Assembly: GCA_029782355.1 (NCBI GenBank)
Contig: JAKOUY010000016.1
Span: 62,001 to 126,000 of the forward strand
Direction: 5' to 3'
Source of the DNA: Actinomycetes bacterium
GTDB taxonomy: Bacteria; Actinomycetota; Acidimicrobiia; Acidimicrobiales; Ilumatobacteraceae
DNA length: 64,000 nt
Below the pieces are notes generated by a model that had not been told where the DNA came from, did no database searches, and worked only from the letters and a program-made list of their open reading frames with translations. The translations under genes and the position numbers were made by a program. This document shows, piece by piece, positions 2,936 through 47,319 of the stretch. Numbering within the stretch: position 1 is the first letter of the stretch; every line of letters starts with the position of its first letter.

Positions 2936-4278
2936 GGGCGGGTCTCCTCGACGGTGCTGGTCGCCGAGCCGGCGGCGAAGGTGGTGACAACTGACTGGCC
3001 GGGTCGGAGCTGGGCGGCATCGCGCACCGTGGTGCCGTCGGCCGTACGGGTGATCGACCATCCCCGCGCCAGGGTGTTCACCGGATCGAGCAGGCGGACC
3101 CGGGCGTGGTGCTGGTCGAGGTGGCGGGCCTCGGACGCCAGGCGCAGTGGGGCGCGAGACAGGGCGGCTGCGGCGTCGTCGAGGCGCCGTTCGGCACCAC
3201 GCTGGGCGGCCACGGTCCCGCGGCGCAACCGGTCGACCCGCTGGTCGAGGCGCTCCCCGCCGCGCTCCACGGCGGCGATCGTGCGTCCGTGGATGCGGTG
3301 GGCGACGTCGTCCAGGCGCTGCTCGGCCCGCTCGACGTGCCGCGCCGCGCCACGACCGATGCCTCGCCAAGCGTCCTCGCTGCGCTCGACGAACCGGCGG
3401 ACCACCTCGACCAGGGCGGTGGCGCAGGCGGTGGGCGTCTTGACCGCCCGGTGGGCGACCTCGTCGGCCACGGACGTGTCGGTCTCGTGGCCGAGCCCGG
3501 TGAACACGGGCAGCGGGCAGGTGGCCACGGCGACGGCGATGCGCTCGTGGTCGAAGGTCGCCAGCTCGCTGCGCGCCCCGCCACCGCGGATCAGCACGAC
3601 GACGTCGAGGTCGCTGCGCCGGCCGAGCGCAGCGACCGCAGCGCTGATCTCCTCGACGGCGAACTCGCCCTGGACGCGCACGTCGGCGACCACGACCTGG
3701 AAGCCGAGCGCGCTGCGACGCAGCTCGTCGCGGAAGTCGGCCCAGGCCGCGCCGTCGAGGCTGGTGACCACCCCGATGCGCAGCGGCACGGCGGCCAGCC
3801 GGCGGCCGCGATTGGCGTCGTAGAGCCCCGAGGCGACCAGCCGGCGGACCACCTCGGTGCGCTGCTGGGCCAGGTCGCCGAGGGTGAACCGCGGATCGAT
3901 CCCGCCCATCTTCAAGCCCAACTGACCGCTGCCGGCGAAGAAGTCGAGATGGCCGTGGATCCGCACGTTGAGCCCGTCGGCGAGGCGCAGCCGGTGCTTG
4001 GCCAAGATCGGTCGGAGGCGCTGCTGGGCCGGGGCGAAGAACTGCACGTTCAGCACCGCCTTGCCCTCCCCGTCGTCCTCCACCAGCCGGAAGTAGGCGT
4101 GCGGGCCACGCACGGTGTAGCCCTGGATCTCGCCCCGGACCCAGACCCCGTCGAGGAACGTCCGCCGCAACGTGTCGTTGAGCAACTGGGCCAGCTCGCC
4201 GACCCGGTAGGTGGGGTTGCCCTCGTCGAAGGACTCCGGCTGATCACCGAAGTCGGCGCCGAACGACAGCTGGCTCAT
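2932..4278 (-). CDS. xseA: Exonuclease VII large subunit
   Basis: A 448-aa catalytic subunit of the bidirectional single-strand exonuclease. The N-terminal OB-fold (about 20-120) contains VWVRGEIQGY and HAYFRLVEDD. The central catalytic region has GVVTSLDGAAWADF, VLIRGGGARSEL, FDHERIA and GLGHETDTSVADEVAHRAVKTPTA, all family signatures. A long Arg-rich coiled coil follows, then a small C-terminal domain ending with LARGWSIT and a beta segment. It is the first gene of an xseA-xseB pair. Length is normal for the family. Confidence 0.93.
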   Translation of the reverse strand: MSQLSFGADFGDQPESFDEGNPTYRVGELAQLLNDTLRRTFLDGVWVRGEIQGYTVRGPHAYFRLVEDDGEGKAVLNVQFFAPAQQRLRPILAKHRLRLADGLNVRIHGHLDFFAGSGQLGLKMGGIDPRFTLGDLAQQRTEVVRRLVASGLYDANRGRRLAAVPLRIGVVTSLDGAAWADFRDELRRSALGFQVVVADVRVQGEFAVEEISAAVAALGRRSDLDVVVLIRGGGARSELATFDHERIAVAVATCPLPVFTGLGHETDTSVADEVAHRAVKTPTACATALVEVVRRFVERSEDAWRGIGRGAARHVERAEQRLDDVAHRIHGRTIAAVERGGERLDQRVDRLRRGTVAAQRGAERRLDDAAAALSRAPLRLASEARHLDQHHARVRLLDPVNTLARGWSITRTADGTTVRDAAQLRPGQSVVTTFAAGSATSTVEETRP

Positions 4279-34515: not shown

Positions 34516-35523
34516 TCAGGAGGTCGGGGTCATGAACTCCAGCAGGCGGCGGCGCCACTCGACGCTGCACTTGTCGGCTTGCACGCTGACCAGCGTGGTC
34601 TGGTCGAGGGGGAGCACACCGGGCAGTTGCTGCAACATCCGCTTGTCCTCGGCACCGATGGCCAGATCGAAGGCCAGGATCTCCTCGGCCGGCACGGTGT
34701 GGTCGTCGTTGCGCCAGACGACGAACGTGAAGTACGAGGTGACGTCGTCGATCGGCGTCGACAGCAGCAGCAGGATGTGCTGCAACCCGGTGTGGTACTG
34801 GATGGTGCTGCGCACCGCCAGCGGCATGGTGAACCCGCTGGACATCCGCCGCTCGACGATCTCGGTGGTCTGACCGCTGGCGGCGTTGGCCAAGGCGTCG
34901 TTGCGCGCCCGGACCTCGTAGCGGTAGCCGAACCAACCGTGGTCCAGCGGGCCGAGCTCGACCTTGGGCACGCGGGTCTCCTGGGCGATGCCGAAGGTGC
35001 CGGTGTGGACGAACGGGAAGTGGGTGATGTCCAGGAAGTTGTCGGCCATGCGCGTCGCCGACACCTGCCAGACGTCGACGGGCGTGTTCAGCCGGCGGAA
35101 CGCCGGGTCGTCGTCCTCGGCGACCACCGGAACGTCGCCGGCCGGCGTCCCGACGCTCATCCACACCAGCCCGTAGCGCTCGGTGACCGGGAAGGTGGGC
35201 AGGTGGGCGCGCGGCGGTGGCGGCACGCCGTCGCTGGCCGAGGGGACCAGCACGCACCGCCCGCCGGCGCCGAAGCGCCAACCGTGATACGGGCACTCCA
35301 GCGTGCCGTCGACCATCGCACCGGGCGACAGCGGCGACTCGCGGTGCGGGCAGCGGTCCGGTGCCGCGACCACCGCACCCGCCGGGTCGCGATACAGCAC
35401 CGCGGCGCACCCGAGCAGGGTGACCGCCTGGGGACGCTCGCCGACGGCGTCCGCGCGGGCCACGGCGTACCAGGAGTTGCGCAGCGCGTCGTTGCTGCAC
35501 AGGACGGAGGTTGATGTCGACAT
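34516..35523 (-). CDS. Rieske non-heme iron oxygenase, alpha subunit (copy 1)
   Basis: A 335-aa VanA/demethylase-sized oxygenase. The Rieske 2Fe-2S site is CPHR (Cys58, His60) and CPYHGW (Cys77, His80). The mononuclear iron site is ADNFLDITHFPFVHTG with His168, His173 and an Asp at 161 or 165 as bridge. It resembles one-subunit O- or N-demethylases more than ring dioxygenases. A reductase partner gene is not in the window. The start codon at 35523 overlaps that of the divergent amidohydrolase. It is at the left edge of the catabolic island. Confidence 0.85.
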   Translation of the reverse strand: MSTSTSVLCSNDALRNSWYAVARADAVGERPQAVTLLGCAAVLYRDPAGAVVAAPDRCPHRESPLSPGAMVDGTLECPYHGWRFGAGGRCVLVPSASDGVPPPPRAHLPTFPVTERYGLVWMSVGTPAGDVPVVAEDDDPAFRRLNTPVDVWQVSATRMADNFLDITHFPFVHTGTFGIAQETRVPKVELGPLDHGWFGYRYEVRARNDALANAASGQTTEIVERRMSSGFTMPLAVRSTIQYHTGLQHILLLLSTPIDDVTSYFTFVVWRNDDHTVPAEEILAFDLAIGAEDKRMLQQLPGVLPLDQTTLVSVQADKCSVEWRRRLLEFMTPTS

Positions 35524-36901
35524 GGTGTGGCAACCTTGGCACGTGGACCCGGCCGCCGAAGACACCGGGGTCCTGGTCCGGGGCGACGTCGTGACGATGG
35601 CGGGCGGGACCGCCGAGGTCCGGTCCGGCGCGGCCGTGTGGATCTGTGGGCCACGGATCGGCGCCGTCGGTCCGTGGGACGAGCTGCGCGCCGCCCATCC
35701 GCGCGCCGACGTCGTCGGCGACGGCCGCGGGCTGGTCACGCCGGGGTTGATCAACGCCCATCAGCACCTGACCGGCGACCGCCTGGTGGCCAGCTGCATC
35801 CCCGAGGCGATCAGCAGCGAGGAAGCCATCTTCGGCTGGGCGGTGCCGGTGCACGACGCGCACACCGCTGACGACGACGAGCTGTCGGCCACCCTGGCCG
35901 CCGTGGCCGCGGTGACCAACGGCGTGACCTGCACGGTGGAGGCGGGCACGGTGGCCCACCCGGAGCGGGTGGCCGCGGCGGTCCAGCGGGTGGGCATGCG
36001 CACGATGCTGGGCCGGTGGGGGTGGGACGCCGAGGGCGTGCCCTTCGGCGCCCCGGCCGACGAGGTGCTCGATGCCCAGCGCCGCCTGGCCGAGCGCTAC
36101 CCCCCCGGCGGCCTGGTCCAGGCCTGGGTCACGCTCGTCGGCCACGACCTGGTCAGCGACGAGCTGTTCGCCGGCGCCGCCGACCTGGCCAGGCGGTTGG
36201 GAACCGGGCTGACCTTCCACATGAGCCCGCACGACCGCGACGCCGCGGCGTTCCTGGCGCGCACCGGGCAGCGCCCATTGGTGCACCTCGACCAGCTCGG
36301 CGTGCTGGGCCGCAACGTCCTCGTGGCCCACGCCGTGCACCTCGACGACGGCGAGGTGTCCGCCATCGCCACCAGCGGAACCGCCGTCGCCGCCTGCCCG
36401 TGGGCCTACCTGCGCCTGGCCCAGGGCGTGACCCGTGCCGGGCGCTACGCCGAGCTGGTCCGCGCCGGTGCTCGCCTGGCGGTGGGGTGCGACTCGGAGA
36501 ACGCCGGCGATGCGGTCGACGTGCTGCGCGCCGCGGCGCTGCTGGTCGGCCTGCTGCGCGACGGGTCCGGGGATGCCACCCTGGCCACCGCCGCCGACGG
36601 CCTGGCGATGGCCACCTGCCGCGGGGCCGAGGCCATCGGGCTGGGGGGGATCACCGGGACCATCGAGGTCGGCCGGGCCGCCGACGTCGTCCTCCACGAC
36701 CGGCGCGGCCCGCAGTTCGTGCCGCCGTCCACCGACCCCGTCCGCCAGCTGCTGTGGGCCAGCGACGGTCGCTCGGTGGCGGACGTGTGGGTCGCCGGCC
36801 GGCGGGTCGTGGCCGACGGCCGTTGCGTGACCGTCGACCTCGACGCCCTGCGCGCCGAGGCCGTCGAACGCCGCGATCACCTCCTGCGCGCCCGCCTCTG
36901 A
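35522..36901 (+). CDS. TRZ/ATZ-type amidohydrolase (copy 1)
   Basis: A 459-aa TIM-barrel metal hydrolase of the cytosine/guanine-deaminase-like group. Metal ligands are His80/His82 (INAHQHLTGD), His233 (FHMSPHD), His270 (LVAHAVHLDD) and Asp324 (CDSENAGD); IEVGRAADVVLHD marks the C-terminal beta sandwich. These enzymes deaminate purines, pterins or triazines, or remove a halogen or alkylamine. I start at ATG 35522, which has GGAGG 11 nt upstream; GTG 35543 is possible. The start then overlaps the divergent Rieske start by two bases. Confidence 0.83.
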   Translation: MVWQPWHVDPAAEDTGVLVRGDVVTMAGGTAEVRSGAAVWICGPRIGAVGPWDELRAAHPRADVVGDGRGLVTPGLINAHQHLTGDRLVASCIPEAISSEEAIFGWAVPVHDAHTADDDELSATLAAVAAVTNGVTCTVEAGTVAHPERVAAAVQRVGMRTMLGRWGWDAEGVPFGAPADEVLDAQRRLAERYPPGGLVQAWVTLVGHDLVSDELFAGAADLARRLGTGLTFHMSPHDRDAAAFLARTGQRPLVHLDQLGVLGRNVLVAHAVHLDDGEVSAIATSGTAVAACPWAYLRLAQGVTRAGRYAELVRAGARLAVGCDSENAGDAVDVLRAAALLVGLLRDGSGDATLATAADGLAMATCRGAEAIGLGGITGTIEVGRAADVVLHDRRGPQFVPPSTDPVRQLLWASDGRSVADVWVAGRRVVADGRCVTVDLDALRAEAVERRDHLLRARL

Positions 36902-36942
36902 CCCCGAGGCACCCCACCCCCGCCTCCGCCCTGAGCCCGAGG

Positions 36943-36983
36943 TGATCAGCGAAGGTCGGCATGGCGCCGACATTCGCTGATCA
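36943..36983 (+). terminator. 3' palindromic element, copy A
   Basis: An 18-bp inverted repeat with one mismatch (arms 36943-36960 and 36966-36983) and the loop ATGGC, 41 bp after the amidohydrolase stop. The right arm GCCGACATTCGCTGATCA is identical to 42424-42441, where the same element follows the ABC-permease gene on the other strand. It is probably a terminator of a dispersed family. Confidence 0.7.
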
Positions 36984-37049
36984 GTTGCCGTGCGAGGGAC
37001 CGAGCGGGAGCCGGACGGGGCGTGGTGGCAGGGCACCTCGCCGATCCCA

Positions 37050-37062
37050 ATGGTCAGACCAT
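37050..37062 (+). promoter_or_regulatory. GntR/FCD operator, site 1
   Basis: Perfect palindrome ATGGTC-A-GACCAT followed by CAGTCCA, 25 bp before the first gene of the plus-strand operon. It fits the FadR-subfamily operator core TGGTCxGACCA. The same 20-base string, differing only in the central base, stands before the VOC gene at 53.9 kb. The likely ligand-responsive regulator is the GntR gene 52750-53448. Confidence 0.8.
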
Positions 37063-37087
37063 CAGTCCATCGTGGTACTGTTCGGCC

Positions 37088-37579
37088 ATGGCGACACCGA
37101 ACACCCTGATCTTCGTCGACATCCCCGCCGACGACACCAACGCGGCCGGTGAGTTCTACCACCGGGTCTTCGGCTGGGAGGTCGAGGGCCGCCCGGCCGG
37201 CGTCTTCCACCGCATCGTCCCTGGTGGGTTCTTCGCCGGGCCGGACGGCAACGACAGCGAGGTCGGCAACCTGCACCTGGGCATCTACGCGGTCGGCAAC
37301 GCCCGGCCGCACCCCGACCCGGCCGGCGTCGAGCCCCGCCAGCTGAACCGCAGCGGCCGAGCCCTGCGGCTGTGGATCCTGGTCAGCGACGACGACAGCG
37401 AGGACGCCATCCTGCAGCGCGCCGAGGACAACGGGGCGACGGTGCTGTGGCGGCATCACTACTGGAAGGAGTTCAACGGGTTCAACGGGGCCTTCGAGGA
37501 TCCGTGGGGCAACACGATCGTGCTGTGGACCAAGGGTGGCGACGACCCGCAGATTCCCGAGGGGTTCACCCGTGAGTAG
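37088..37579 (+). CDS. VOC-fold protein without obvious metal site
   Basis: A 163-aa glyoxalase/bleomycin-resistance-fold protein with two babbb modules: LIFVDIPADDTNAAGEFYHR then ALRLWILVSDDDSEDAILQR, ending FEDPWGNTIVLWTK. The first-strand metal His is replaced (IFVDIP), and no clear His-Glu pair remains, so it may bind a substrate without being a metal dioxygenase. First gene of a five-gene operon under the GntR operator; the next gene overlaps its end by 8 nt. Confidence 0.72.
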   Translation: MATPNTLIFVDIPADDTNAAGEFYHRVFGWEVEGRPAGVFHRIVPGGFFAGPDGNDSEVGNLHLGIYAVGNARPHPDPAGVEPRQLNRSGRALRLWILVSDDDSEDAILQRAEDNGATVLWRHHYWKEFNGFNGAFEDPWGNTIVLWTKGGDDPQIPEGFTRE

Positions 37580-38051
37580 CGACACCGCCCGGCACTCCCT
37601 GCTGCCCACCCAGCCGCGCTGGACGCACATCGCGCTCCCGGCGACCGACATCGATGCCACCATCGCCTGGTACGAGCGGTACACGCCGTTGCGCCTGCTG
37701 GACCGCCGCGAGGATGCCGACGGCTACGGCGCCTGGCTCGGCCACCCGGACATGGGCGACAAGCCGTTCGTCCTCGTGCTGGTCAGCTTCTTCCGCGACC
37801 AGGACAAGGGTCCGCAGCCGATCATGGCCCCCTTCGCCCACATCGGCATCGAGCTGCCCACCGAGCAGGCGGTGCGTGACGTGGCCGACATGGCCCGCGC
37901 CGACGGTTGCCTGGTCTGGGAGCCCCAGCAGATGCCCGACCCGATCGGGTACATCTGCGCCTGCACCGACCCGGACGGCAACATGATCGAGTTCAGCTAC
38001 GACCAGGGCGTGTACGAGAAGGCCCAGGAGGTCTGGGGCGCAGCCGGATGA
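37572..38051 (+). CDS. VOC-family metalloenzyme, possible extradiol dioxygenase or lyase
   Basis: A 159-aa VOC protein with a complete candidate metal triad: His19 (WTHIALP), His90 (FAHIGIEL) and Glu140 (DPDGNMIEFS). Such single-repeat VOC proteins include extradiol dioxygenases, glyoxalases and epimerases. GTG 37572 starts inside the end of the previous gene (8-nt overlap) and its stop overlaps the next start (ATGA), so it is translationally coupled on both sides. Confidence 0.77.
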   Translation: MSSDTARHSLLPTQPRWTHIALPATDIDATIAWYERYTPLRLLDRREDADGYGAWLGHPDMGDKPFVLVLVSFFRDQDKGPQPIMAPFAHIGIELPTEQAVRDVADMARADGCLVWEPQQMPDPIGYICACTDPDGNMIEFSYDQGVYEKAQEVWGAAG

Positions 38052-39082
38052 AGGCCCTGCGCTACCACCAGCCCGGTGGGCCGGAGGTCCTGCGCTACGA
38101 GGAGGTCCCCGACCCGGTCCCCGGCCGGCGCGATGTGGTGATCCGCGTGGCGGCCACGGCGCTGAACCGCCTCGACGTCGTCCAGCGCAACGGGTGGTAC
38201 ACCCTGCCCGGATTCGCCCTCCCGCACATCGCCGGCATGGACGTCGTGGGGGTCGTCGAGCAGGTTGGTGCCGACGTCACCACCGTGCGCCCCGGCGATC
38301 GGGTGGTCGTCGATCCGTCGCTGGCCGAGGTGCCCGACGGCTCCTCCCTGGCCGGCATGGGTGACCTGTACGGCGTGCTCGGCGTGGTCGGTGCCACGGT
38401 CGACGGGGGCTACGCCGAGCGATGCCTGGCGCCGGAGACCCACGTCCATCAGGTGCCCGACTCGATGGCGTGGGAACACGCGGTGAGCTTCCCCACGGCG
38501 TGGATGACGGCGTGGCACGCGCTGTTCCCCGTCGGCGCGCTGGCAGCCGGCGAGACGGTGATGATCCACGCCGCCGGCAGCGGAGTGTCCACCGCGGCCA
38601 TCCAGCTGGCCAAGCACGCCGGAGCCACCGTGCTGGCCACCGCGGGGAACGACGAGAAGTGCGCCAAGGCCCTGGCCCTCGGGGCCGACGCAGTGCTGAA
38701 CAACCGCACGGGCGACCTCATCGCCTGGGCCCGCGAGCACACCGCCGGCGCCGGGGTCCAGCTGGTGCTCGACCATGTCGGCCCGGCGCTGTGGGAGGCC
38801 TCGCTGTTCGCCCTGGCGCCGCGTGGTCGCCTGGTGAACTGCGGCAACACCACCGGTGACACGGCCACGATCCCCTCGCTGGGCCACCTGTTCCACCTCG
38901 GCCTGCGCATCCTCGGCTCCGACCCGTACCGCTACGACGAGTTCGCCGAGGCCTGGGCGGTGTTCTGCGCCGGCTCGTTCCAGACGCCGGTCGAGCGGGT
39001 CGTCCCGCTGGCCGAGGGCGCCGAGGCCCAGCGCCAGCTGGAGCGAGGTGAGGTGTTCGGCAAGCTGATCCTCGCGCCGTGA
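38048..39082 (+). CDS. MDR-family (quinone oxidoreductase-like) dehydrogenase
   Basis: A 344-aa medium-chain reductase: GroES-like domain (MKALRYHQPGGPEVLRYEEV, NRLDVVQRNGWY, HIAGMDVVGVVEQVG) and Rossmann domain with HAAGSGVSTAAIQLAKHAGA. Structural-zinc cysteines are absent, as in NADPH:quinone oxidoreductases and enoyl reductases. In this operon it probably reduces an enone or oxidises an alcohol formed from the catabolic substrate. ATGA overlap with the VOC gene upstream; 11 bp to the methyltransferase gene. Confidence 0.82.
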   Translation: MKALRYHQPGGPEVLRYEEVPDPVPGRRDVVIRVAATALNRLDVVQRNGWYTLPGFALPHIAGMDVVGVVEQVGADVTTVRPGDRVVVDPSLAEVPDGSSLAGMGDLYGVLGVVGATVDGGYAERCLAPETHVHQVPDSMAWEHAVSFPTAWMTAWHALFPVGALAAGETVMIHAAGSGVSTAAIQLAKHAGATVLATAGNDEKCAKALALGADAVLNNRTGDLIAWAREHTAGAGVQLVLDHVGPALWEASLFALAPRGRLVNCGNTTGDTATIPSLGHLFHLGLRILGSDPYRYDEFAEAWAVFCAGSFQTPVERVVPLAEGAEAQRQLERGEVFGKLILAP

Positions 39083-39093
39083 CCCACTGACCG

Positions 39094-40170
39094 ATGTCCA
39101 CCGACTCGCCGTACCCGGAGCTGAAGAAGACCCACACGATGGCCCGCGCCGGGCGGCCGTGGCGGGACCGCAAGCCGCCGCCGGCCGGTCCGGTGTGGGC
39201 GGTGATCCAGGGCTTCGGGTCGTACTGGGCGTTGGTCAGCGCCGTCGAGTTGGGCGTGTTCGACGCCCTCACGGATGGTCCCCGGGGGATCGACGACCTG
39301 GCTGAGCAACTGGCGGTGTCGGCACGGCCGCTGACCCACCTGTGCGACGTGATGGTCGCCTTCGGGTTCCTCGACCAGCTCGACGACGTCTACGAGCTGA
39401 CCGAGACCGCCGAGCGCTACCTGTGCACCGATGGGGCGGCGTCGATGGCGGCACTCATCCGCGTCGCCCCCGGGCCGCACGCCAACTGGGAACGGCTGGC
39501 GGAGACGGTGCGTGCCGGGCAGGCGCCGACCCCGATCGACGACGACCCGGCGGCCTTCTACGGCCCGCTGGTCGCGGCCACCTTCGCCACCCAGCTACGC
39601 GCCGCCACCCGGCTCGGCCTGCGGCTCGGGTGGGCTCGCCGCCCCGGCCTGCGGGTGGTCGACCTCGGGGCCGGGCGGGCACCGTGGAGCATCGCGGTCC
39701 TCGAGCAGTCCGCCGGGTCGACCGCCGTCGTCAACGACCTCCCCGGCGTCATCGAGGACGCCGCCGCCGAGCTTGCCCGGCGCGGCCTGACCGAGCGGGT
39801 CGAGCTCCGGTCGGGTGAGGCCCACCGACTCGACCTCGCGCCGGAATCGGCCGACCTCGTGGTGCTCGGGCACCTGCTGCGCACCGAGGGCGAGGCCCGC
39901 AGCCGCCTGCTGCTGGACGCCGCCTGGCAAGCGCTGGAGGCGGGTGGGCAGGTGATCGTGGCCGACTACTTCGCCGACGACGAGCGCACCGCCCGCCCCT
40001 TCGGGGTGCACATGGGGCTGACGATGTTGGCCAACACCCGCCGCGGCGGCGTGCTGACCCACGGCCAGGTCGCCGGCTGGCTCGCCGCAGCCGGGTTCTC
40101 CGACATCCGCCTGCTGGAACCGATCGGTTTCAACCTGGCCTACGTGGCCACTAAAGGAGCACGTCCATGA
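39094..40170 (+). CDS. SAM-dependent methyltransferase with winged-helix dimerisation domain
   Basis: A 358-aa protein of the O-methyltransferase (Methyltransf_2) type. The N-terminal winged-helix dimerisation domain (about 40-112) has ALVSAVELGVFDALTDGPRG and FLDQLDDVYELTETAERYL. The SAM site is RVVDLGAGRAPWS (DLGAG at 190-194), followed by VVNDLPGVIEDAA and DLVVLGHLLRTEG. The usual His general base of plant-type enzymes is plausible in the GHLLRTEGE segment. A methyltransferase within a degradative operon is unexpected; it may shield an intermediate or transfer methyls released by demethylation. Stop overlaps the next start (ATGA). Confidence 0.8.
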   Translation: MSTDSPYPELKKTHTMARAGRPWRDRKPPPAGPVWAVIQGFGSYWALVSAVELGVFDALTDGPRGIDDLAEQLAVSARPLTHLCDVMVAFGFLDQLDDVYELTETAERYLCTDGAASMAALIRVAPGPHANWERLAETVRAGQAPTPIDDDPAAFYGPLVAATFATQLRAATRLGLRLGWARRPGLRVVDLGAGRAPWSIAVLEQSAGSTAVVNDLPGVIEDAAAELARRGLTERVELRSGEAHRLDLAPESADLVVLGHLLRTEGEARSRLLLDAAWQALEAGGQVIVADYFADDERTARPFGVHMGLTMLANTRRGGVLTHGQVAGWLAAAGFSDIRLLEPIGFNLAYVATKGARP

Positions 40171-41576
40171 ACCCGCCGACCGAGACCTCGCCGCAGCCCT
40201 GCGACCTGCTGGTCCACGGCTCGCACGTCGTGACGATGAACGCCGGCCGGGACGTGATCCGTCACGGGGCGGTGGCGGTGCGCGGCACCGAGATCGTCGC
40301 GGTCGGCAAGACCGACGAGCTGCGGCGGCGGTTCGCTCCGGCCCGGGAGGTGGGCGGGGGGCACCACGTGGTCACGCCCGGGTTGGTCAACACCCACATC
40401 CACGTGACCGGTGAGCCGCTGACCCGTGGGTACGTCCCCGATGACACCCCGTTCGTCGAGAACGTCTTCGAGTGGCTGTGCCCGCTGTACAGCGTGTACG
40501 ACGCGGCCGAGGAGCGGACCTCGGCGCAGCTGGCCGCGGTGGAGATGCTGCGCAGCGGGACGACGACCTTCCTCGAAGCCGGCACGATCCGCTTCCTCGA
40601 CGAGGTGGTCGACGGCCTGGTCCAGACCGGCATCCGCGCCCGCGTCGGACAGTGGGTGTGGGACCTCCCGCCCGAACCCGGCGTCTACCGCCAGACCACC
40701 GATCAGGCCATCGCTCATCTCGCCGAGCAACTCGATCGCCATCGCAGCCACGCCGGCGGTCGGGTGGCGGCGTGGAGCATCCTGGTCGGCCACACCACGT
40801 GCAGCGATCCGCTGTGGCGGGCCGCCAAGGCGCTGGCCGACCAGCACGGGGTCGGGCTGAGCTTCCACATGAGCCCGGCTCAGCTCGATCCGGACGGGTT
40901 CATCGCCGAGTTCGGCCAGCGCCCGATGGTCCATCTGGCCGAGCTCGGTGTGCTCGACCGCAACGTGGCGATGACCCACGTGGTGCGCATCGACGAGCAG
41001 GAGCTGGGGCTCATCGCTGCCAGCGGGGCCAGCGTGGTGCACTGCCCGACCACCGCGCTGAAGGTCAGCTACGGCGTCACCCAGGTGGGCCGGTTCCCGG
41101 AGATGGTCCAGCGCGGCATCAACGTGTCGATCGGCACCGACGGGAACAACGCCTCGAACTACAGCGACCTGATGCGCGCCACCTATCTGGTCGCCGGGCT
41201 GTTCAAGGACGCCCGCACCGATCCGCAGATGTTCCCGGCCGAGACTGCCCTGGAGATGGCCACGCTGGGCGGGGCACGCACGATGCTCCTCGACCAGCAG
41301 ATCGGCTCGCTGGAGGTGGGCAAGCGCGCCGATCTGGTGGTCCACGACACCGACCGACCGGAGTGGCGGCCGCTGCTGAACGTGGTCAACCAGTTGGTGT
41401 GGAGTGCCGACGGCCGCAGCGTCGACACCGTCGTGGTCGACGGGGCCGTGGTGGTCGAGCACGGCCACTGCACCACCGTCGACGAGGAGCGGTTGTGGGC
41501 CGACGCCCAGCGGATGGGCGAGTCGATCACCGCCCGCAGCGGCCTGCCGGATCGGGCCAAGTTCCCGACCTGGTGA
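40167..41576 (+). CDS. TRZ/ATZ-type amidohydrolase (copy 2)
   Basis: A 469-aa TIM-barrel amidohydrolase, paralogue of copy 1. Metal ligands are His77/His79 (VNTHIHVTGE), His234 (FHMSPAQ), His271 (MTHVVRID) and Asp325 (IGTDGNNAS). VHCPTTALKVSYG resembles the substrate loop of triazine hydrolases and thiomethyladenosine/guanine deaminases. Strong ribosome-binding site AAAGGAG before ATG 40167, and ATGA overlap with the methyltransferase. The two copies may deaminate successive intermediates. Confidence 0.87.
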   Translation: MNPPTETSPQPCDLLVHGSHVVTMNAGRDVIRHGAVAVRGTEIVAVGKTDELRRRFAPAREVGGGHHVVTPGLVNTHIHVTGEPLTRGYVPDDTPFVENVFEWLCPLYSVYDAAEERTSAQLAAVEMLRSGTTTFLEAGTIRFLDEVVDGLVQTGIRARVGQWVWDLPPEPGVYRQTTDQAIAHLAEQLDRHRSHAGGRVAAWSILVGHTTCSDPLWRAAKALADQHGVGLSFHMSPAQLDPDGFIAEFGQRPMVHLAELGVLDRNVAMTHVVRIDEQELGLIAASGASVVHCPTTALKVSYGVTQVGRFPEMVQRGINVSIGTDGNNASNYSDLMRATYLVAGLFKDARTDPQMFPAETALEMATLGGARTMLLDQQIGSLEVGKRADLVVHDTDRPEWRPLLNVVNQLVWSADGRSVDTVVVDGAVVVEHGHCTTVDEERLWADAQRMGESITARSGLPDRAKFPTW

Positions 41577-41610
41577 GCGGGCCGCAGCCACGTCGCCGCA
41601 CCGGCGGCGG

Positions 41611-42360
41611 TCAGGCCAGGCCGGCCTGGCGCTGGAACACGAGACTGTCCCAGTAGTCGGTGCGCCGGGTGATCAATCCACCGGCGATCTCGAAGTGCAT
41701 GCAGCCGGGCACGGCGACCGGGCGGCCGCCGACGGTGGCGTGCAGGGTGTAGGTGGCCGCGGCGCGGCCTCGCTCGGCGACGACGTCGTGGACCTCGTAG
41801 CGCAGGTCGGCCATCGAGGCCAGGAAGCCGGGCAGCCGTTCGGCGTACGCCGCCTTGCCGGAGCACCCGCTGCCCAGCGCGGCGGTGTGCTCGTTGACGA
41901 AGTCGTCGGCGACGCAGTCCAGCACCGGTCGGGGGTCGCCGGTGGCGAAGGCCGCCAGGTAGCGGCGGACCAGTGCCGCTGGTTGCTCGGCTCCGACGAA
42001 CAGGCAGAACGGATGCCCGGCCGGGTCGAGCATGACGCGCACGTCGTCCTGCGGTTGATGGGTCGCCAGGGTGGCCCCAGCCGCTTCGGCCTCCGCCACC
42101 GCCGCGGCGAGGTCGTCCACGGCCAGGTCGAGGTGCATCGACATCTGCTGCTGGCCCGGCCCGGCCGGCCACACGGGACGCTGGTAGTCCGCTTCCGTTT
42201 GGAAGGACAGCCCGGCCCCGCCGCGCGGATCGGCAAGCATGGTCCAGTCACCCTCGTCGTGGACGATCGGCCAACCGGTCAGCCTGGCGTAGAAGCCGGC
42301 CAGCGTGGCCGCATGCGGCGCGCCGAGGACCGTCCCCGCAACCCGCAACGGTGTCCCCAT
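41611..42360 (-). CDS. VOC-SnoaL fusion protein
   Basis: A 249-aa two-domain protein. Residues 1-120 are a VOC domain (LAGFYARLTGWPIVHDEG, MHLDLAVDDL, MLDPAGHPFCLF). Residues 128-245 look like a SnoaL/NTF2 polyketide-cyclase-like cone: LVRRYLAAFATGDP, VADDFVNEH, RYEVHDVVAERGRAAATYTL, FEIAGGLITRRTDYWD. Both folds bind small hydrophobic or cyclic compounds; the fusion suggests isomerisation or hydrolysis of a ring compound. ATG 42360 is preferred to a start 21 codons upstream because the upstream part overlaps palindromic element B. It converges with the amidohydrolase operon, 34 bp away. Confidence 0.75.
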   Translation of the reverse strand: MGTPLRVAGTVLGAPHAATLAGFYARLTGWPIVHDEGDWTMLADPRGGAGLSFQTEADYQRPVWPAGPGQQQMSMHLDLAVDDLAAAVAEAEAAGATLATHQPQDDVRVMLDPAGHPFCLFVGAEQPAALVRRYLAAFATGDPRPVLDCVADDFVNEHTAALGSGCSGKAAYAERLPGFLASMADLRYEVHDVVAERGRAAATYTLHATVGGRPVAVPGCMHFEIAGGLITRRTDYWDSLVFQRQAGLA

Positions 42361-42400
42361 CGCCGTCACGCTAGGCCCCGGCCGCCGCAACCCGGGCAAC

Positions 42401-42441
42401 TGATCATCGGATGTCGATGCCATGCCGACATTCGCTGATCA
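42401..42441 (-). terminator. 3' palindromic element, copy B
   Basis: Imperfect inverted repeat whose right arm 42424-42441 is identical to that of copy A. Read outwards from the permease gene (minus strand) it starts GTGATCAGCGAA and continues GTCGGCATG, the same direction relative to its upstream operon as copy A. It begins 69 bp after the permease stop. The opposite arm is less conserved (TGATCATCGGATGTCG). Confidence 0.6.
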
Positions 42442-42445
42442 CCTG

Positions 42446-42500
42446 GCGGGGGGGCGGGGAGAGGGGAGGAGGGGAGGGGGGAGGAGAAGGGGGGCTGGGG
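42446..42500 (+). repeat. G-rich purine tract with quadruplex potential
   Basis: About 55 bp on the plus strand almost entirely of G and A, with at least six runs of four or more G separated by one to five bases. This meets the usual G4 pattern with short loops. It lies in the 3' untranslated region of the ABC-permease gene (C-rich in that mRNA). Confidence 0.6.
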
Positions 42501-42509
42501 CTGCCGGGG

Positions 42510-43445
42510 TCAGGTGAGGCCGCGGAGGAAGGGTTGGGCGAGGGCTCGCGGTTGGCGGGTGCGGCGGGCGAAGATGGCGGTGATGCCGAGGGCGACGAGG
42601 TAGGGGAGGCTGGCGTTGAGCTGCGGGTTGATGTCGACCAACTTGGCCTGCTGGAAGGCGAAGAAGTAGCCGAACAGCAGGCAGCCGGCCACCGTGCCAC
42701 GCAACGTCCACCCGCCGAAGATCACCGCGGCGATGGCGATGATCCCCTTCAGGCCGACGTGGCCCGGCTCGTAGCCGTTGATGCCGATCTGGCCGAGGAC
42801 CAGGACCCCGCCGCCTAGCCCGCAGCACGCACCGGCGAACAGGATCGCCTGGCGCCGGCGGCGGTTGACGTGGATGCCGGACACGTCGGCGGCCTGCGGG
42901 TTGTCGCCCACGCTGCGGACCTCCAGGCCCCACCGGGTCCGGAACACCAGCCACCAGGCCAGGACCACCAGCGGCACGATCAGCAGCATCGGCCATGGCT
43001 GGCCGAACAGCGCCTGGCCCACCACCGGGATGCGGTGCAGCAGCGGGATCCGCCACGCCTTGGGAACTGGGGTGACGGCCTTCCAGCGGTGGTCGAGGAA
43101 CAGGGCCAGGCCGAGCACGAAGATGTTCAGCGTCAACCCGACGACGAACTGGTCGATGGTCAGGCGGTGGCTCAGCCAGGCCTGGGCGGACGACACCGCG
43201 GCACCGGCCAGCACGCCCACGGCGAGGGCCGCCGGGACGTTGTGCCAGGCGCCGACGGCCACCGCCGAGCTGTACGCCCCGCCGATCATGAACGACTCGA
43301 GCGAGATGTTCAGCGTGCCGGCGCGCTCGGCCACCCATTCGCCCACCGCAGCGAACGCCAGGATCACGGCGAATCGCACCGTCGACCCGTAGAGCGCAGC
43401 GGAGGAGAGGATGTCGCTGAGCGTGTTGGCCAGCATTCCCGTCAC
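42510..43445 (-). CDS. ABC importer permease, BMP/nucleoside type (second permease)
   Basis: A 311-aa permease of the branched-chain/nucleoside BPD_transp_2 family. It has about eight transmembrane helices and the segments ERAGTLNISLESFMIGGAYS, FVVGLTLNIFVLGLALFL, RSVGDNPQAADVSGIHV and GGVLVLGQIG. It forms the channel with the neighbouring permease. GTG 43445 overlaps the first permease stop (GTGA). Last gene of the importer operon; palindromic element B and a G-rich tract follow. Confidence 0.85.
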   Translation of the reverse strand: MTGMLANTLSDILSSAALYGSTVRFAVILAFAAVGEWVAERAGTLNISLESFMIGGAYSSAVAVGAWHNVPAALAVGVLAGAAVSSAQAWLSHRLTIDQFVVGLTLNIFVLGLALFLDHRWKAVTPVPKAWRIPLLHRIPVVGQALFGQPWPMLLIVPLVVLAWWLVFRTRWGLEVRSVGDNPQAADVSGIHVNRRRRQAILFAGACCGLGGGVLVLGQIGINGYEPGHVGLKGIIAIAAVIFGGWTLRGTVAGCLLFGYFFAFQQAKLVDINPQLNASLPYLVALGITAIFARRTRQPRALAQPFLRGLT

Positions 43446-44548
43446 CCTCCCGCGGCCACGGTGGCCAGGGTGCCGGCGGCCGCCACGGCCGGACGCCGCC
43501 GTTGATCGAACAGGGTCATCAGCGCCGGAGGCACCAGCATGGCCATCACCAGCAGGGCGCGGACCACCTCGGCGATCGAGCGGGGGACACCGGTGGCGGC
43601 GAGGAACCCGGAGCCGGTGCGCAGCATGCCGAACACGAACGCCACGGGGATGCAGGCCCACGGGCGGTTGCGGGCCACCAGGGCCACCAGCAGGCCCTCC
43701 CAGCCGACGTTGTTGGAGAAGCCGGCGGTGAACCGGTAGCCGCTGGCCCCGGCCGCCAGCATCGACGCCCCGGCCAGGCCGGCCATCGCCCCGCCGAGCA
43801 TCAGCGCCGTGCTCCCGGCGATCATCACCGGCACGCCGATGCGCTGGGCGGTGCGCGGGTTGCGGCCGAGCACGGTCAGGCGGAACCCCCAGCGGGTCCT
43901 GCTGATCAGCACCCCGACGGCGACGGCCAGCGCCACGGCCGCCAGGGCGGTCCACGGGACGGCGTTGCCCAGCAGGCGGACGCTGCCCACGCGGGTGGTG
44001 GGATCGAGCTGCTTGCTGGTCTGCACCTGGTTCTGCACGCCCTTCTCCAGGTACTGGAGCAGGAAGCTGCGCGACAGCAGCCACCCGGTGATCTGCGAGG
44101 CGACGAACACCAGCAGCAGGGTGGAGATCACCTCGGGCACCTTGCGCCAGTAGCGCAGCACGGCGGCGAGGCCGGCCCACAGCGCCCCGCCGACGAACCC
44201 GGCCGCCAGCATGAACAGCAGCGCCACCGGGCCACGGTGGTTGACCGCCACCCACGTGGCCGCCGCCGTGCCCATGGCCAGCTGGCCCTCCTGGCCGATG
44301 TTCACCAGCCCGGCCCGGCTGGACACGATGACGCCGAGGGCGACGATCAGGATCGGCGTGGCCTCGGTGATGGTGGTGCCCCACCGCCCGGGGTTGCGCA
44401 CGCTGCCGTCGAGCAGGGCGGTCAGCACCCTGCGCCACGGGCCACCGGTCATGGCGATGAGCACCGCGGCGACGGCGAGGGCGGTCAGCACGCACACGAC
44501 GTACAGGACGACGACGCTGACCATCCGGCGGACCGACCGGTCAGGCAT
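43442..44548 (-). CDS. ABC importer permease, BMP/nucleoside type (first permease)
   Basis: A 368-aa permease with a long N-terminal helix pair, family segment SSRAGLVNIGQEGQLAMGTA, the EVISTLLLVFVASQITGWLL helix and GRNPRTAQRIGVPV, the counterpart of the EAA-like loop in YufP-type permeases. It starts 8 nt inside the ATPase gene and overlaps the second permease by GTGA. Together with ATPase and BMP protein it makes a complete importer of the type that carries nucleosides, purines or other heterocycles. Confidence 0.85.
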   Translation of the reverse strand: MPDRSVRRMVSVVVLYVVCVLTALAVAAVLIAMTGGPWRRVLTALLDGSVRNPGRWGTTITEATPILIVALGVIVSSRAGLVNIGQEGQLAMGTAAATWVAVNHRGPVALLFMLAAGFVGGALWAGLAAVLRYWRKVPEVISTLLLVFVASQITGWLLSRSFLLQYLEKGVQNQVQTSKQLDPTTRVGSVRLLGNAVPWTALAAVALAVAVGVLISRTRWGFRLTVLGRNPRTAQRIGVPVMIAGSTALMLGGAMAGLAGASMLAAGASGYRFTAGFSNNVGWEGLLVALVARNRPWACIPVAFVFGMLRTGSGFLAATGVPRSIAEVVRALLVMAMLVPPALMTLFDQRRRPAVAAAGTLATVAAGG

Positions 44549-46148
44549 GCTCGGCCATCCCTCCGAGCAGCAGGCCCATACGCTCGGCGGTGGCCTCGGC
44601 CCGGGTCAGCTCGCCGATCACCCGGCCGCGGCTGAGCACCACGATCCGGTCGGAGAGGTCGAGGATCTCCTCCAGCTCGGTGGAGATCAGCAGCACGCCG
44701 ATGCCGGACGCGGCTGCGGCGCGCAGCCGGGCGCTCATGTACTCGATCGCCCCGACGTCGAGGCCACGGGTCGGTTGGGCGGCCACGAGCACCGCCGGGT
44801 GGTGGCTGAGCTCGCGCGCCAGCACGACGCGTTGCTGGTTGCCGCCGGACAGGCTGGCGAAGGTGGCGTCGGGGCCGGCCCCCTTGATGTCGAACTCGTC
44901 CATCAGCGCCAGCGCCCGCTGGCGCAGCTCGGTGCGGCGGACGAAGCCCATCGTGCTGACCGATCCGATCCGGTCCAGCAGGAGGTTCTCGGCGACGGTC
45001 ATCGAGAGCACGCAGCCGGAGTCGTGGCGGTCCTCGGGGATCACCGCGACGCCAAGGCCGGCCATGCTGCCCGCCCGGCCGGGGTGGGCGGTGACCCCGT
45101 TGACGGTGACCGTGCCGCCGTCGAGGTGCACCAGGCTGGACAGCAGGTCGCCGAGCTCGCGCTGCCCGTTGCCCTCGACCCCGGCGACGCCGAGGATCTC
45201 CCCGGCGTGCAGCGTCAGGCACAGGTCGTCGATCACCGCCACGCCGTGGCGCAGCACCCGGGCGTGGTCGATCTGCAACACGACGGGCCGCGCCGCCGCC
45301 GGATCGGTCCCCGAGCCCTCGGGCGTGTCCGGTTCCCCGTGCCCGGCATCGAGGTCGTCGGTCGCCCCCAGTGCCGCGGCACTGCTGCGCAACGACACCC
45401 GCCGTCCGACCATCGCCGTGGCCAGGTCGAGCGCGGTGGCGCCGGTGGTGGGCCGGTGCTCGACGACCTTGCCCTGGCGCATGATCGTGACGACGTCGGT
45501 GGCGTGGAGGATCTCGGCCAGCTTGTGGCTCACCAGGGCCACGGCGCGCCCCTCGGTCACCACCGCGGCGCGCAGCGTGGAGAACAGGTCCTCGCTCTCG
45601 GCCGGGGTGAGCACGGAGGTCGGCTCGTCGAGGATCAGGATCTTCGGGTCGCGGCGCAGGCACTTGATCAGCTCGACCCGTTGGCGCAGCCCGGCGGACA
45701 GGTCGCCGACGCGCACGTCGGGGTCGATCGCCAGGCCGTAGCGGGCTGCCGTGTCGGCCACCTGGCGGCGCGCTATGCCGCGGTCGAAGCGGCGGTGGTC
45801 ACCGAGCAGGACGTTCTCCCACACCGTCAGCTCGTCCACCAGGCTGAGGTGCTGGTGGACCATGCCGATGCCCAGGTCGGCAGCCGTCTGCGGGTCGTGG
45901 ACCGACACCGGCCGGCCGTGCAGCAGCAGGTGGCCCTCATCGGGCTGGACCAGCCCGATGAGGATCTTCATCAGCGTCGACTTGCCCGCACCGTTCTCGC
46001 CGAGGATCCCGTGGATCTGCCCGGGGTGCAGCATCAGGTCGACGTCGTCGCAGGCGACCACCGAGCCGTAGCGCTTGGTGATCCCGTGCAACGTGATGGT
46101 GGGGGAGGCCGAGACCTCCCCCACCATCGTGCGGTCCGACGCGGTCAA
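44541..46148 (-). CDS. ABC importer ATPase with two nucleotide-binding domains
   Basis: A 535-aa duplicated ATPase like those of ribose/nucleoside importers. First half: Walker A GILGENGAGKSTLMKILIG, signature DLSAGLRQRVE, Walker B ILILDEPTSVLT. Second half: degenerate Walker A GVAGVEGNGQRE, signature SLSGGNQQRV, QPTRGLDVGA. In this family the second site is usually degenerate, as here. It stands 4 bp after the BMP gene and overlaps the first permease gene by 8 nt. It energises uptake of the island's substrate. Confidence 0.9.
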   Translation of the reverse strand: MTASDRTMVGEVSASPTITLHGITKRYGSVVACDDVDLMLHPGQIHGILGENGAGKSTLMKILIGLVQPDEGHLLLHGRPVSVHDPQTAADLGIGMVHQHLSLVDELTVWENVLLGDHRRFDRGIARRQVADTAARYGLAIDPDVRVGDLSAGLRQRVELIKCLRRDPKILILDEPTSVLTPAESEDLFSTLRAAVVTEGRAVALVSHKLAEILHATDVVTIMRQGKVVEHRPTTGATALDLATAMVGRRVSLRSSAAALGATDDLDAGHGEPDTPEGSGTDPAAARPVVLQIDHARVLRHGVAVIDDLCLTLHAGEILGVAGVEGNGQRELGDLLSSLVHLDGGTVTVNGVTAHPGRAGSMAGLGVAVIPEDRHDSGCVLSMTVAENLLLDRIGSVSTMGFVRRTELRQRALALMDEFDIKGAGPDATFASLSGGNQQRVVLARELSHHPAVLVAAQPTRGLDVGAIEYMSARLRAAAASGIGVLLISTELEEILDLSDRIVVLSRGRVIGELTRAEATAERMGLLLGGMAEHA

Positions 46149-46152
46149 CGAA

Positions 46153-47319
46153 TCAGCCGCCGCTGTAGGCCTTGACCTTGATCTCGCCGAACTGGGCGGC
46201 GAGCTTGCCGGCGGCGATGTCGCGGTAGACGGCGTCCATGGCGGACTGCTGGTCCGCGGTCGGGTTGCAGATCTGGGCGCCGGGTTGCGGGTCGACGCCC
46301 ACCTTGAAGACGCGGATGTCGCCTTCCTTGAACTTGCCGGTCAGGATCTCGTTGAAGATCGTCGTCAGGTAGTCACCGGCGTCGAAGCGGACTTGGATGT
46401 CGTACTTCAGGTCGGTGCGCGCGCAGGCCTTCGACGACCCGGCGGACATGACGATCAGCCCCTTCTCGTTGGCCAGCTTGACCACGGGTTCGTGGGCCCC
46501 GCCGAGGAACGGGTACACCGCCTGAGCACCGTTCGAGATCGCCGTGTTCAGCGCCTCCGTGGCCCCCGAGGTGTTGTCGAAGTCGTACGGGAAGTTGCCG
46601 CTGGCGACGTAGGTGTTGGTGAACGACGGATCGACGGCCTTCAGCCCGAGCTCGAAGGCCAGGTAGGCCTCCTTCTCGAAGTTCAGGTCGCAGCACCCGA
46701 TGAACACGCTCTTCGAGCCGCCCTTGGCCTTCAACAGCAGGCCGGTGGCGTACCCAGCGGTGTAGCTGATCTCCGACGAGTCGTCCTGGCTCTGGGCCAG
46801 GGTGGGGATCTGCGGCTGGCCGGCACCGCAGTTGCAGTACCAGAAGATGTCCTGGTACTTGGCGGTGAGATCCTTCAGCGGGGCGGCCAGCGAGCTGGCA
46901 CCGACCAGGATCATGTCGACCTTCTGCTCGGCGAGGTTGGTCAGTTCGGTGGCCGCAGCGTCGGACTTGATGTTGTCGACCACGATCGGGTCGGCGAAGC
47001 CGTACTTGGCCGAGACTTCCTTGGTCTTGTCGACCAGCGCCTGGTAGTAGGCGCCGTCGTTGGCCGGCCCGGCGGTGGCGATGCCGATGACCACCTTGCC
47101 GTCACCGTTGACGTCGAACTGCTTGACGGCATCGGCGGCCGACATCGGGACCAGCGTGTCGGAGGTGGACGCGGCGGACCCGGCGGTCGTCCCGGCGGTG
47201 GCGGCGGCCGTCCCGGCCGGGGTGGTGGGTGGTGTGGTGCCGCTGGCCGTGCCGGCCGCGGCGATGGTCAGGGCGGCGCACGCCAGCGTGGCGCCGAGCA
47301 AGGTGCGAGTGCGATTCAA
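46153..47319 (-). CDS. BMP-family ABC substrate-binding protein
   Basis: A 388-aa exported binding protein. A signal peptide (MNRTRTLLGATLACAALTIA) is followed by a Thr/Ala-rich linker to about residue 55. The BMP domain has VVIGIATAGPANDGAYYQAL, VDMILVGASSLAAPL, VFIGCCDLNFEKEAYLAFEL and NGAQAVYPFLGGAHEPVV. Members bind purine nucleosides, purines, autoinducers or other heterocycles. A signal-peptidase II site at TLAC is possible but the preceding hydrophobic stretch is short. First gene of a four-gene importer operon; a palindrome lies 42 bp upstream. Confidence 0.85.
   Translation of the reverse strand: MNRTRTLLGATLACAALTIAAAGTASGTTPPTTPAGTAAATAGTTAGSAASTSDTLVPMSAADAVKQFDVNGDGKVVIGIATAGPANDGAYYQALVDKTKEVSAKYGFADPIVVDNIKSDAAATELTNLAEQKVDMILVGASSLAAPLKDLTAKYQDIFWYCNCGAGQPQIPTLAQSQDDSSEISYTAGYATGLLLKAKGGSKSVFIGCCDLNFEKEAYLAFELGLKAVDPSFTNTYVASGNFPYDFDNTSGATEALNTAISNGAQAVYPFLGGAHEPVVKLANEKGLIVMSAGSSKACARTDLKYDIQVRFDAGDYLTTIFNEILTGKFKEGDIRVFKVGVDPQPGAQICNPTADQQSAMDAVYRDIAAGKLAAQFGEIKVKAYSGG

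Follow-up and report, generated by a model that had tools for sequence, protein, structure and literature searches.

A dispersed 41-bp palindrome near gene ends in a bacterial genome: a probable untagged REP-like element

The repeated element considered here, designated A, is probably an untagged REP-like palindrome of 41 bp, dispersed in its genome, copied as a unit, kept mainly downstream of genes, and tolerated or possibly used at transcript ends. Two copies are situated in the window, that is, the whole stretch of 64,000 nucleotides analysed, which corresponds to C7:62001-126000 of a draft genome of 3,785,116 bp (40 contigs, 98% complete). Earlier, an identical arm had been noticed behind two operons; this observation is real yet incomplete, as the arm forms one side of a 41-bp dyad. 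The two copies and their neighbouring genes are as follows.

36943..36983, + strand: element A copy 1, 41-bp palindrome TGATCAGCGAAGGTCGGC-ATGGC-GCCGACATTCGCTGATCA
42401..42441, - strand: element A copy 2, 41-bp palindrome TGATCAGCGAATGTCGGC-ATGGC-ATCGACATCCGATGATCA
35543..36901, + strand: amidohydrolase-family gene (Pfam PF01979), its stop codon 41 bp ahead of copy 1
37088..37579, + strand: glyoxalase-family gene, a co-directional neighbour that begins 104 bp past copy 1
42510..43436, - strand: ABC permease gene, its stop codon 68 bp from copy 2; final member of a Bmp-type ABC transporter set, 47301-42510
41611..42360, - strand: glyoxalase/SnoaL-like gene, a co-directional neighbour whose start is 40 bp past copy 2

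The 18-mer GCCGACATTCGCTGATCA occurs exactly, as had been reported, at 36966-36983 and 42424-42441, on the + strand both times, and shuffled sequences gave an expectation of 0.01 matches in the window at up to 3 mismatches. A third match with 1 mismatch (36943-36960, - strand) is the other arm of the copy 1 hairpin. This hairpin is near-perfect (17/18 arm pairs match), its predicted RNA fold is -31.1 kcal/mol against a shuffled mean of -14.6 (z -6.5), and it is strong on both strands. The partner arm of copy 2, at 42401-42418, is diverged (TGATCATCGGATGTCGAT), and the RNA fold of this copy has -20.0 kcal/mol (z -1.5) on the - strand and -23.2 kcal/mol (z -3.0) on the + strand. The original prediction gave distances of 41 and 69 bp from the stop codons; the first is correct and the second has to be changed to 68 bp. 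It also ascribed to the arm the same orientation relative to each operon. The operons ahead of the two copies lie on opposite strands and the strand of the 18-mer is unchanged, so this does not apply to the arm alone; it does apply to the whole elements, whose asymmetric loop GGCATGGC sets their orientation in the same sense relative to the upstream genes.

Throughout the genome, form A has the consensus TGATCA-K-CGA-W-TGTCGGC-ATGGC-RYCGACA-W-TCG-M-TGATCA, a 41-bp dyad with near-complementary 18-bp arms and a 5-base loop. A spaced-pattern search revealed 19 copies, and the reversed control pattern gave 0; TGATCA was found at both ends of 16/19 copies and TGTTCA at one or both ends of the remaining 3/19. 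Searching the genome for the arm led to 36 matches, nearly all within 41-bp pairs; the sole exception was at C32, with 3 mismatches. Since arms do not occur singly, the possibility of a DNA-uptake sequence was discarded. The 19 copies served to build a covariance model, which recovered all 19 and, after them, two members of a sister form, B, described as TGGTCAGCGAATCCGG-N9-CCGGATTCGCTGACCA, for which its own pattern gave 8 copies (control 0). A and B have in common their length, the TGRTCAGCGAAT outer arms and the gene-end location, and they are distinguished by changes that match between the two arms. Beyond A and B, the profile search of the genome gave a few weak extra matches only. It is hardly conceivable that these repeats arose as palindromes by chance or through common coding sequence: no support for this was found, though high-GC genomes hold many GC-rich dyads, and it is refuted by the 0.01 matches expected in the window and by 19 and 8 copies, mostly intergenic, against 0 for the controls. 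The same 19 + 8 copies, chiefly intergenic and close to 3' ends, bear out the earlier statements that the repeat is not due to shared genes, is dispersed and is REP-like. The genome search and gene-end tabulation proposed at that time were carried out, and copies were neither absent elsewhere nor scattered randomly inside genes.

Gene models were obtained with a codon-usage gene finder, and distances close to gene starts are approximate. Although genes constitute 88% of the sequence sampled, 17/19 A copies are intergenic or overlap a gene's end only. The 17 intergenic regions with A include 14 between co-directional genes, 2 between convergent and 1 between divergent ones. The copies are nearer to a 3' than to a 5' end in 14 cases out of 19 (null 0.40, P = 0.003) and are depleted between divergent genes (1/17 vs 40/111 other intergenic regions of at least 80 bp, P = 0.009). 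The 3' bias may stem solely from avoiding promoters and genes. With respect to the nearest 3' end, 10 copies of A point one way and 6 the other (P = 0.45). The flanks are C-rich before the element (50%) and G-rich after it (58%), resembling element-free convergent intergenic regions. Copy-specific pairing of left and right flanks was rejected: flanks of the same copy pair no better than those of different copies (-38.9 vs -41.1 kcal/mol), so the flanks share composition only.

Five copies, three of A and two of B, include the stop of an adjacent gene model. A tandem A pair with a 93-bp period (C19:307920-308053) lies in frame within a sugar-kinase-like gene, in which an SBD_N match ends ahead of the pair and NBD_C stretches after it. 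Both tandem copies start with TGTTCA on the coding strand, which gives Cys-Ser; TGATCA would be a stop, and an in-frame TGA is thus avoided. No relative of this gene was found in the PDB. Both the tandem in-frame pair and the copies from which neighbouring genes take their stop codons have an insertion-like appearance. By eye, no target-site duplication was recognised in the A flanks, and the arm search, whose only match outside 41-bp pairs was that at C32, revealed no full-length insertion sequence with A as terminal repeats (a MITE parent).

The 19 A copies provide 38 half-sites, in which TG, TCA and GTCG are invariant and positions 7, 9, 10, 11 and 18 vary. Among the first 16 positions, nine never vary (simulation P about 0.02, each distinct variant counted once), a value that is partly due to ascertainment, as the search pattern favours the same letters; a selected binding site would explain these 9/16 positions equally well. 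At the variable positions, core pairs are disrupted and significant compensatory change is not seen: 88.9% of cells are paired vs 87.9% after shuffling, 77/500 shuffles scored as high, and the covariation score was reached in 22/500. The lack of significant co-variation between the arms at positions 7, 9-11 and 18 means that selection for RNA pairing is not visible in the core. Paired changes were found in columns 1-4 and 46-49, just beyond it. Taken alone, the uncompensated core leans towards recognition of each half-site as DNA over selection for RNA pairing.

These data are relevant to an explanation that we consider unlikely, namely that A is an operator or architectural site with inverted half-sites TGATCA-K-CGA-W-TGTCG, which would be recognised by a dimer of some nucleoid, segregation or regulatory DNA-binding protein and selected copy by copy. 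The same degenerate half-site in both arms, with TG.TCA and GTCG invariant in 38/38 and variation at matching positions, agrees with it, as do the core without significant co-variation and the absence of a fixed orientation to genes. The copies are also unevenly spread, with 10/19 on one 851-kb contig and 0 on three contigs totalling 1.25 Mb (a post hoc observation), which would suit such a site. However, A is found close to 3' ends, not promoters, and rarely between divergent genes, its in-gene and stop-codon-spanning copies resemble insertions, and the motif is missing from the searched relatives, whereas members of a family usually share regulators together with their sites.

The terminator half of the original wording, 'terminator or REP-like', was not established, since there is no U-tract, no terminator-like match and no fixed orientation; the dispersed, REP-like half was upheld. 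On both strands, the longest T-run in the 40 nt that follow each of the 27 copies does not exceed 3; terminator scans at the two window sites gave no match, and no match over the gathering score was obtained with Rfam 15 in window positions 36000-43500. A GC-rich hairpin, as in intrinsic (Rho-independent) terminators, is present in A (z -6.5 for copy 1, weaker for copy 2). A terminator role of A is possible but unsupported, and termination is here a predicted activity. It is rather improbable that A is primarily a bidirectional transcription terminator that would have been homogenised genome-wide by recombination. The copy 1 hairpin, strong on both strands, the closeness of copies to 3' ends and the C-rich sequence before and G-rich sequence after the palindrome, as in other convergent gaps of the genome, are consistent with this idea, and other palindromes of a related genome (D1 and D2, see below) occupy convergent gaps, often 2-45 bp off stop codons. 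It is opposed by the fact that none of the copies is flanked by a U-tract, the lack of a terminator-like match at both window sites, the moderate fold of copy 2 on the strand of its operon (z -1.5), the core pairs broken without compensation and the fact that most gene ends of the genome carry no element.

In the preferred reading, that of a REP-like element copied as a unit, some enzyme would copy it through transposition or gene conversion, and copies would persist mainly just 3' of genes, where insertion harms least. The hairpin, readable on either strand, could help to form or protect RNA 3' ends. Its effect on RNA ends might be bidirectional and might involve Rho, as suggested by the C-rich flank before the hairpin on each strand.

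In 148 related genomes, which include no other species of the window genome's genus, no true copy of the A pattern was found, and two of them had one chance-like match each with 3 mismatches. The exact A pattern is absent in GTDB genome contigs and IMG/VR, two scans outside which very near genomes may fall. The outer-arm pattern common to A and B had no match in GTDB genome contigs, and in the relatives it gave one 3-mismatch palindrome (genome G026). Judging from sequence matches, A and B are restricted to a single lineage among the genomes searched, and we infer that they are the window genome's own palindrome set.

Genome G018 from another genus (g19) of the same family has its own palindromes, D1, D2 and D3. 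There are 29 copies of D1 in G018 (18 exact pattern matches), 3 in its congener G078 and none in 8 other congeners. Nearly every D1 copy of G018 is 2-45 bp from a stop codon and D1 often fills convergent gaps; D2, like D1, occupies short gaps between convergent genes, often at the same distance from stops. Two D1 copies of G078 follow orthologues of genes that have D1 in G018, and show a matched change in both arms. Downstream of an orthologous LLM-type oxidoreductase gene (81-86% identical), there is D1 in G018, an unrelated palindrome in G089 and a short gap without a palindrome in G037. As three congeners differ after one orthologous gene, such elements turn over and look mobile; gene-end palindromes are replaced within g19.

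A search of the window genome, a 98%-complete draft, for a RAYT-type Y1 transposase (PF01797) gave no match at E<=1, and control genomes were positive. PF01797 transposases are present in 5/7 related genomes tested. In genus g19, a Y1-transposase gene is flanked by two palindromes in L215 and L219 and adjoined by one palindrome in L214 and L218, that of L218 being a double D3 unit; the palindromes beside these genes have sequences unrelated to those of A and B. This proximity makes RAYT-type spread a local precedent, though one that would extend to A and B only by analogy with relatives. A common mobilising gene between close element pairs (C7:519692/520680; G018 135770/136688 and 482295/483177) was rejected because the genes between the pairs examined are unrelated. 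It should be mentioned that the modest copy number and the fact that neither a RAYT-family gene nor another mobilising enzyme was recognised in the genome count against the preferred reading, as do the missing target-site duplication and the core without significant co-variation. A broader idea, which we regard as doubtful, is that the family has a RAYT-independent class of palindromes of ~41 bp, which would be spread by a protein reading two inverted 18-bp half-sites; the outer arms would be kept and both inner arms exchanged together (as from A to B, or from D1 to a TGCGCA variant of it), each species remaking its own gene-end set.

Comparison with known systems concerns, first of all, the GTAG- and CGTC-tagged repetitive extragenic palindromes, or REP elements (PMC3733652). 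Like A and B, these are short palindromes that form species-specific families, several per genome, and are found 3' of coding sequences, mainly in spacers that separate unidirectional or convergent genes (PMC3733652). A, with its 41 bp, is close to their size class (20-40 bp) and shares their intergenic repetition. Unlike them, A has near-complete 18-bp arms; neither tag was found in the aligned four-base flanks of the 19 A copies; REP elements usually number >100 copies per genome (PMC2817692), compared with 19 A and 8 B here; and the RAYT with which they are associated was not found in the window genome. Because of the tag, abundance and RAYT results, A and B are not filed as REPs, though they behave alike. 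Similarly, in REPtrons and TIRtrons palindromes flank a RAYT (PMC3733652), which resembles the g19 Y1-transposase genes beside or between palindromes (L214, L215, L218, L219), and the window genome differs in that no such gene was found in it. Rickettsia palindromic elements (RPE), as presented in PMC3733652, can lie in frame within genes and may be likened by placement to the tandem pair, which is the single in-gene location here.

Further counterparts are the spaced palindromes in passages of a survey (PMC5217627), where untagged 3'-end palindromes are already listed without a mechanism. One of them, GAATCCAT(N)23ATGGATTC of Bradyrhizobium, has 52 copies near 3' ends. It resembles A in its 39-bp dyad (41 bp here), tens of copies, 3'-end proximity and a termination role that is merely guessed; its sequence is unrelated to A, and those passages contain neither inter-species comparison nor evidence of insertion. 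In one bacterial family, different gene-end palindromes are found per genome and their replacement is visible at an orthologous site. The family therefore offers a natural comparison for studying the spread of palindromic repeats in genomes where a RAYT is not found, and it also bears on whether, in high-GC bacteria, RNA 3' ends are formed by untagged palindromes free of a U-tract.

Element A, the 41-bp dispersed palindrome, is spread unevenly over the contigs of the genome. Contig C7 (851 kb) holds 10 of its 19 copies, and none of the 19 is found in C1, C29 and C35 of G000 taken together (1.25 Mb); the contrast between C7 and these three, all picked post hoc, gives P ~0.0005, and P ~0.002, again post hoc, when close pairs of copies are merged.

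In the window, two copies stand at the ends of a 5.4-kb stretch of small enzyme genes:

36943-36983, + strand, element A copy 1
36984-42400, small enzyme genes
42401-42441, - strand, element A copy 2

Within 34516-47301, where some genes were named by eye and others by Pfam match, this stretch has a gene of the Rieske type on one side and an ABC transporter set on the other.

Element A also occurs inside a gene. Two copies with a 93-bp period (C19:307920-308053; L061:9921-10054) are located within a four-carbon-acid-sugar-kinase-like gene, the frame of which is unbroken through both, with the SBD_N and NBD_C matches on either side of the pair.

The genome that carries A and its sister form B has a third palindrome family, TGCGTGCGCARACC-N12-GGTTTGCGCACGCA (40 bp), which is frequently arranged in short arrays with a period of 51 bp.

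Stretches with the third family
L086:17806-17947 and onward (C1)
L125:5315-5405 (C7:835.3 kb)
L123:13474
L054:18535

Related genomes possess their own gene-end palindromes, D1, D2 and D3 in G018 (stretches L155, L163, L165, L169-L174) and TGACGTTCACGTTGTGTCAGACACAACGTGAACGTCA in G089 (L201:2268-2300, 3532-3568), and these often occupy the gaps between convergent genes. Some D1 copies in G018 are paired at a spacing of 0.9-1.1 kb, and among the copies listed the GCATGAAC arm variant is confined to such pairs.

Paired D1 copies, G018 C1
135770/136688
482295/483177
4620127/4621196

In genus g19, palindromes flank or adjoin genes of the Y1 (RAYT-like) transposase (stretches L214, L215, L218, L219); the Y1 gene of G078, which contains an internal TAG, has a double D3 palindrome close to it.
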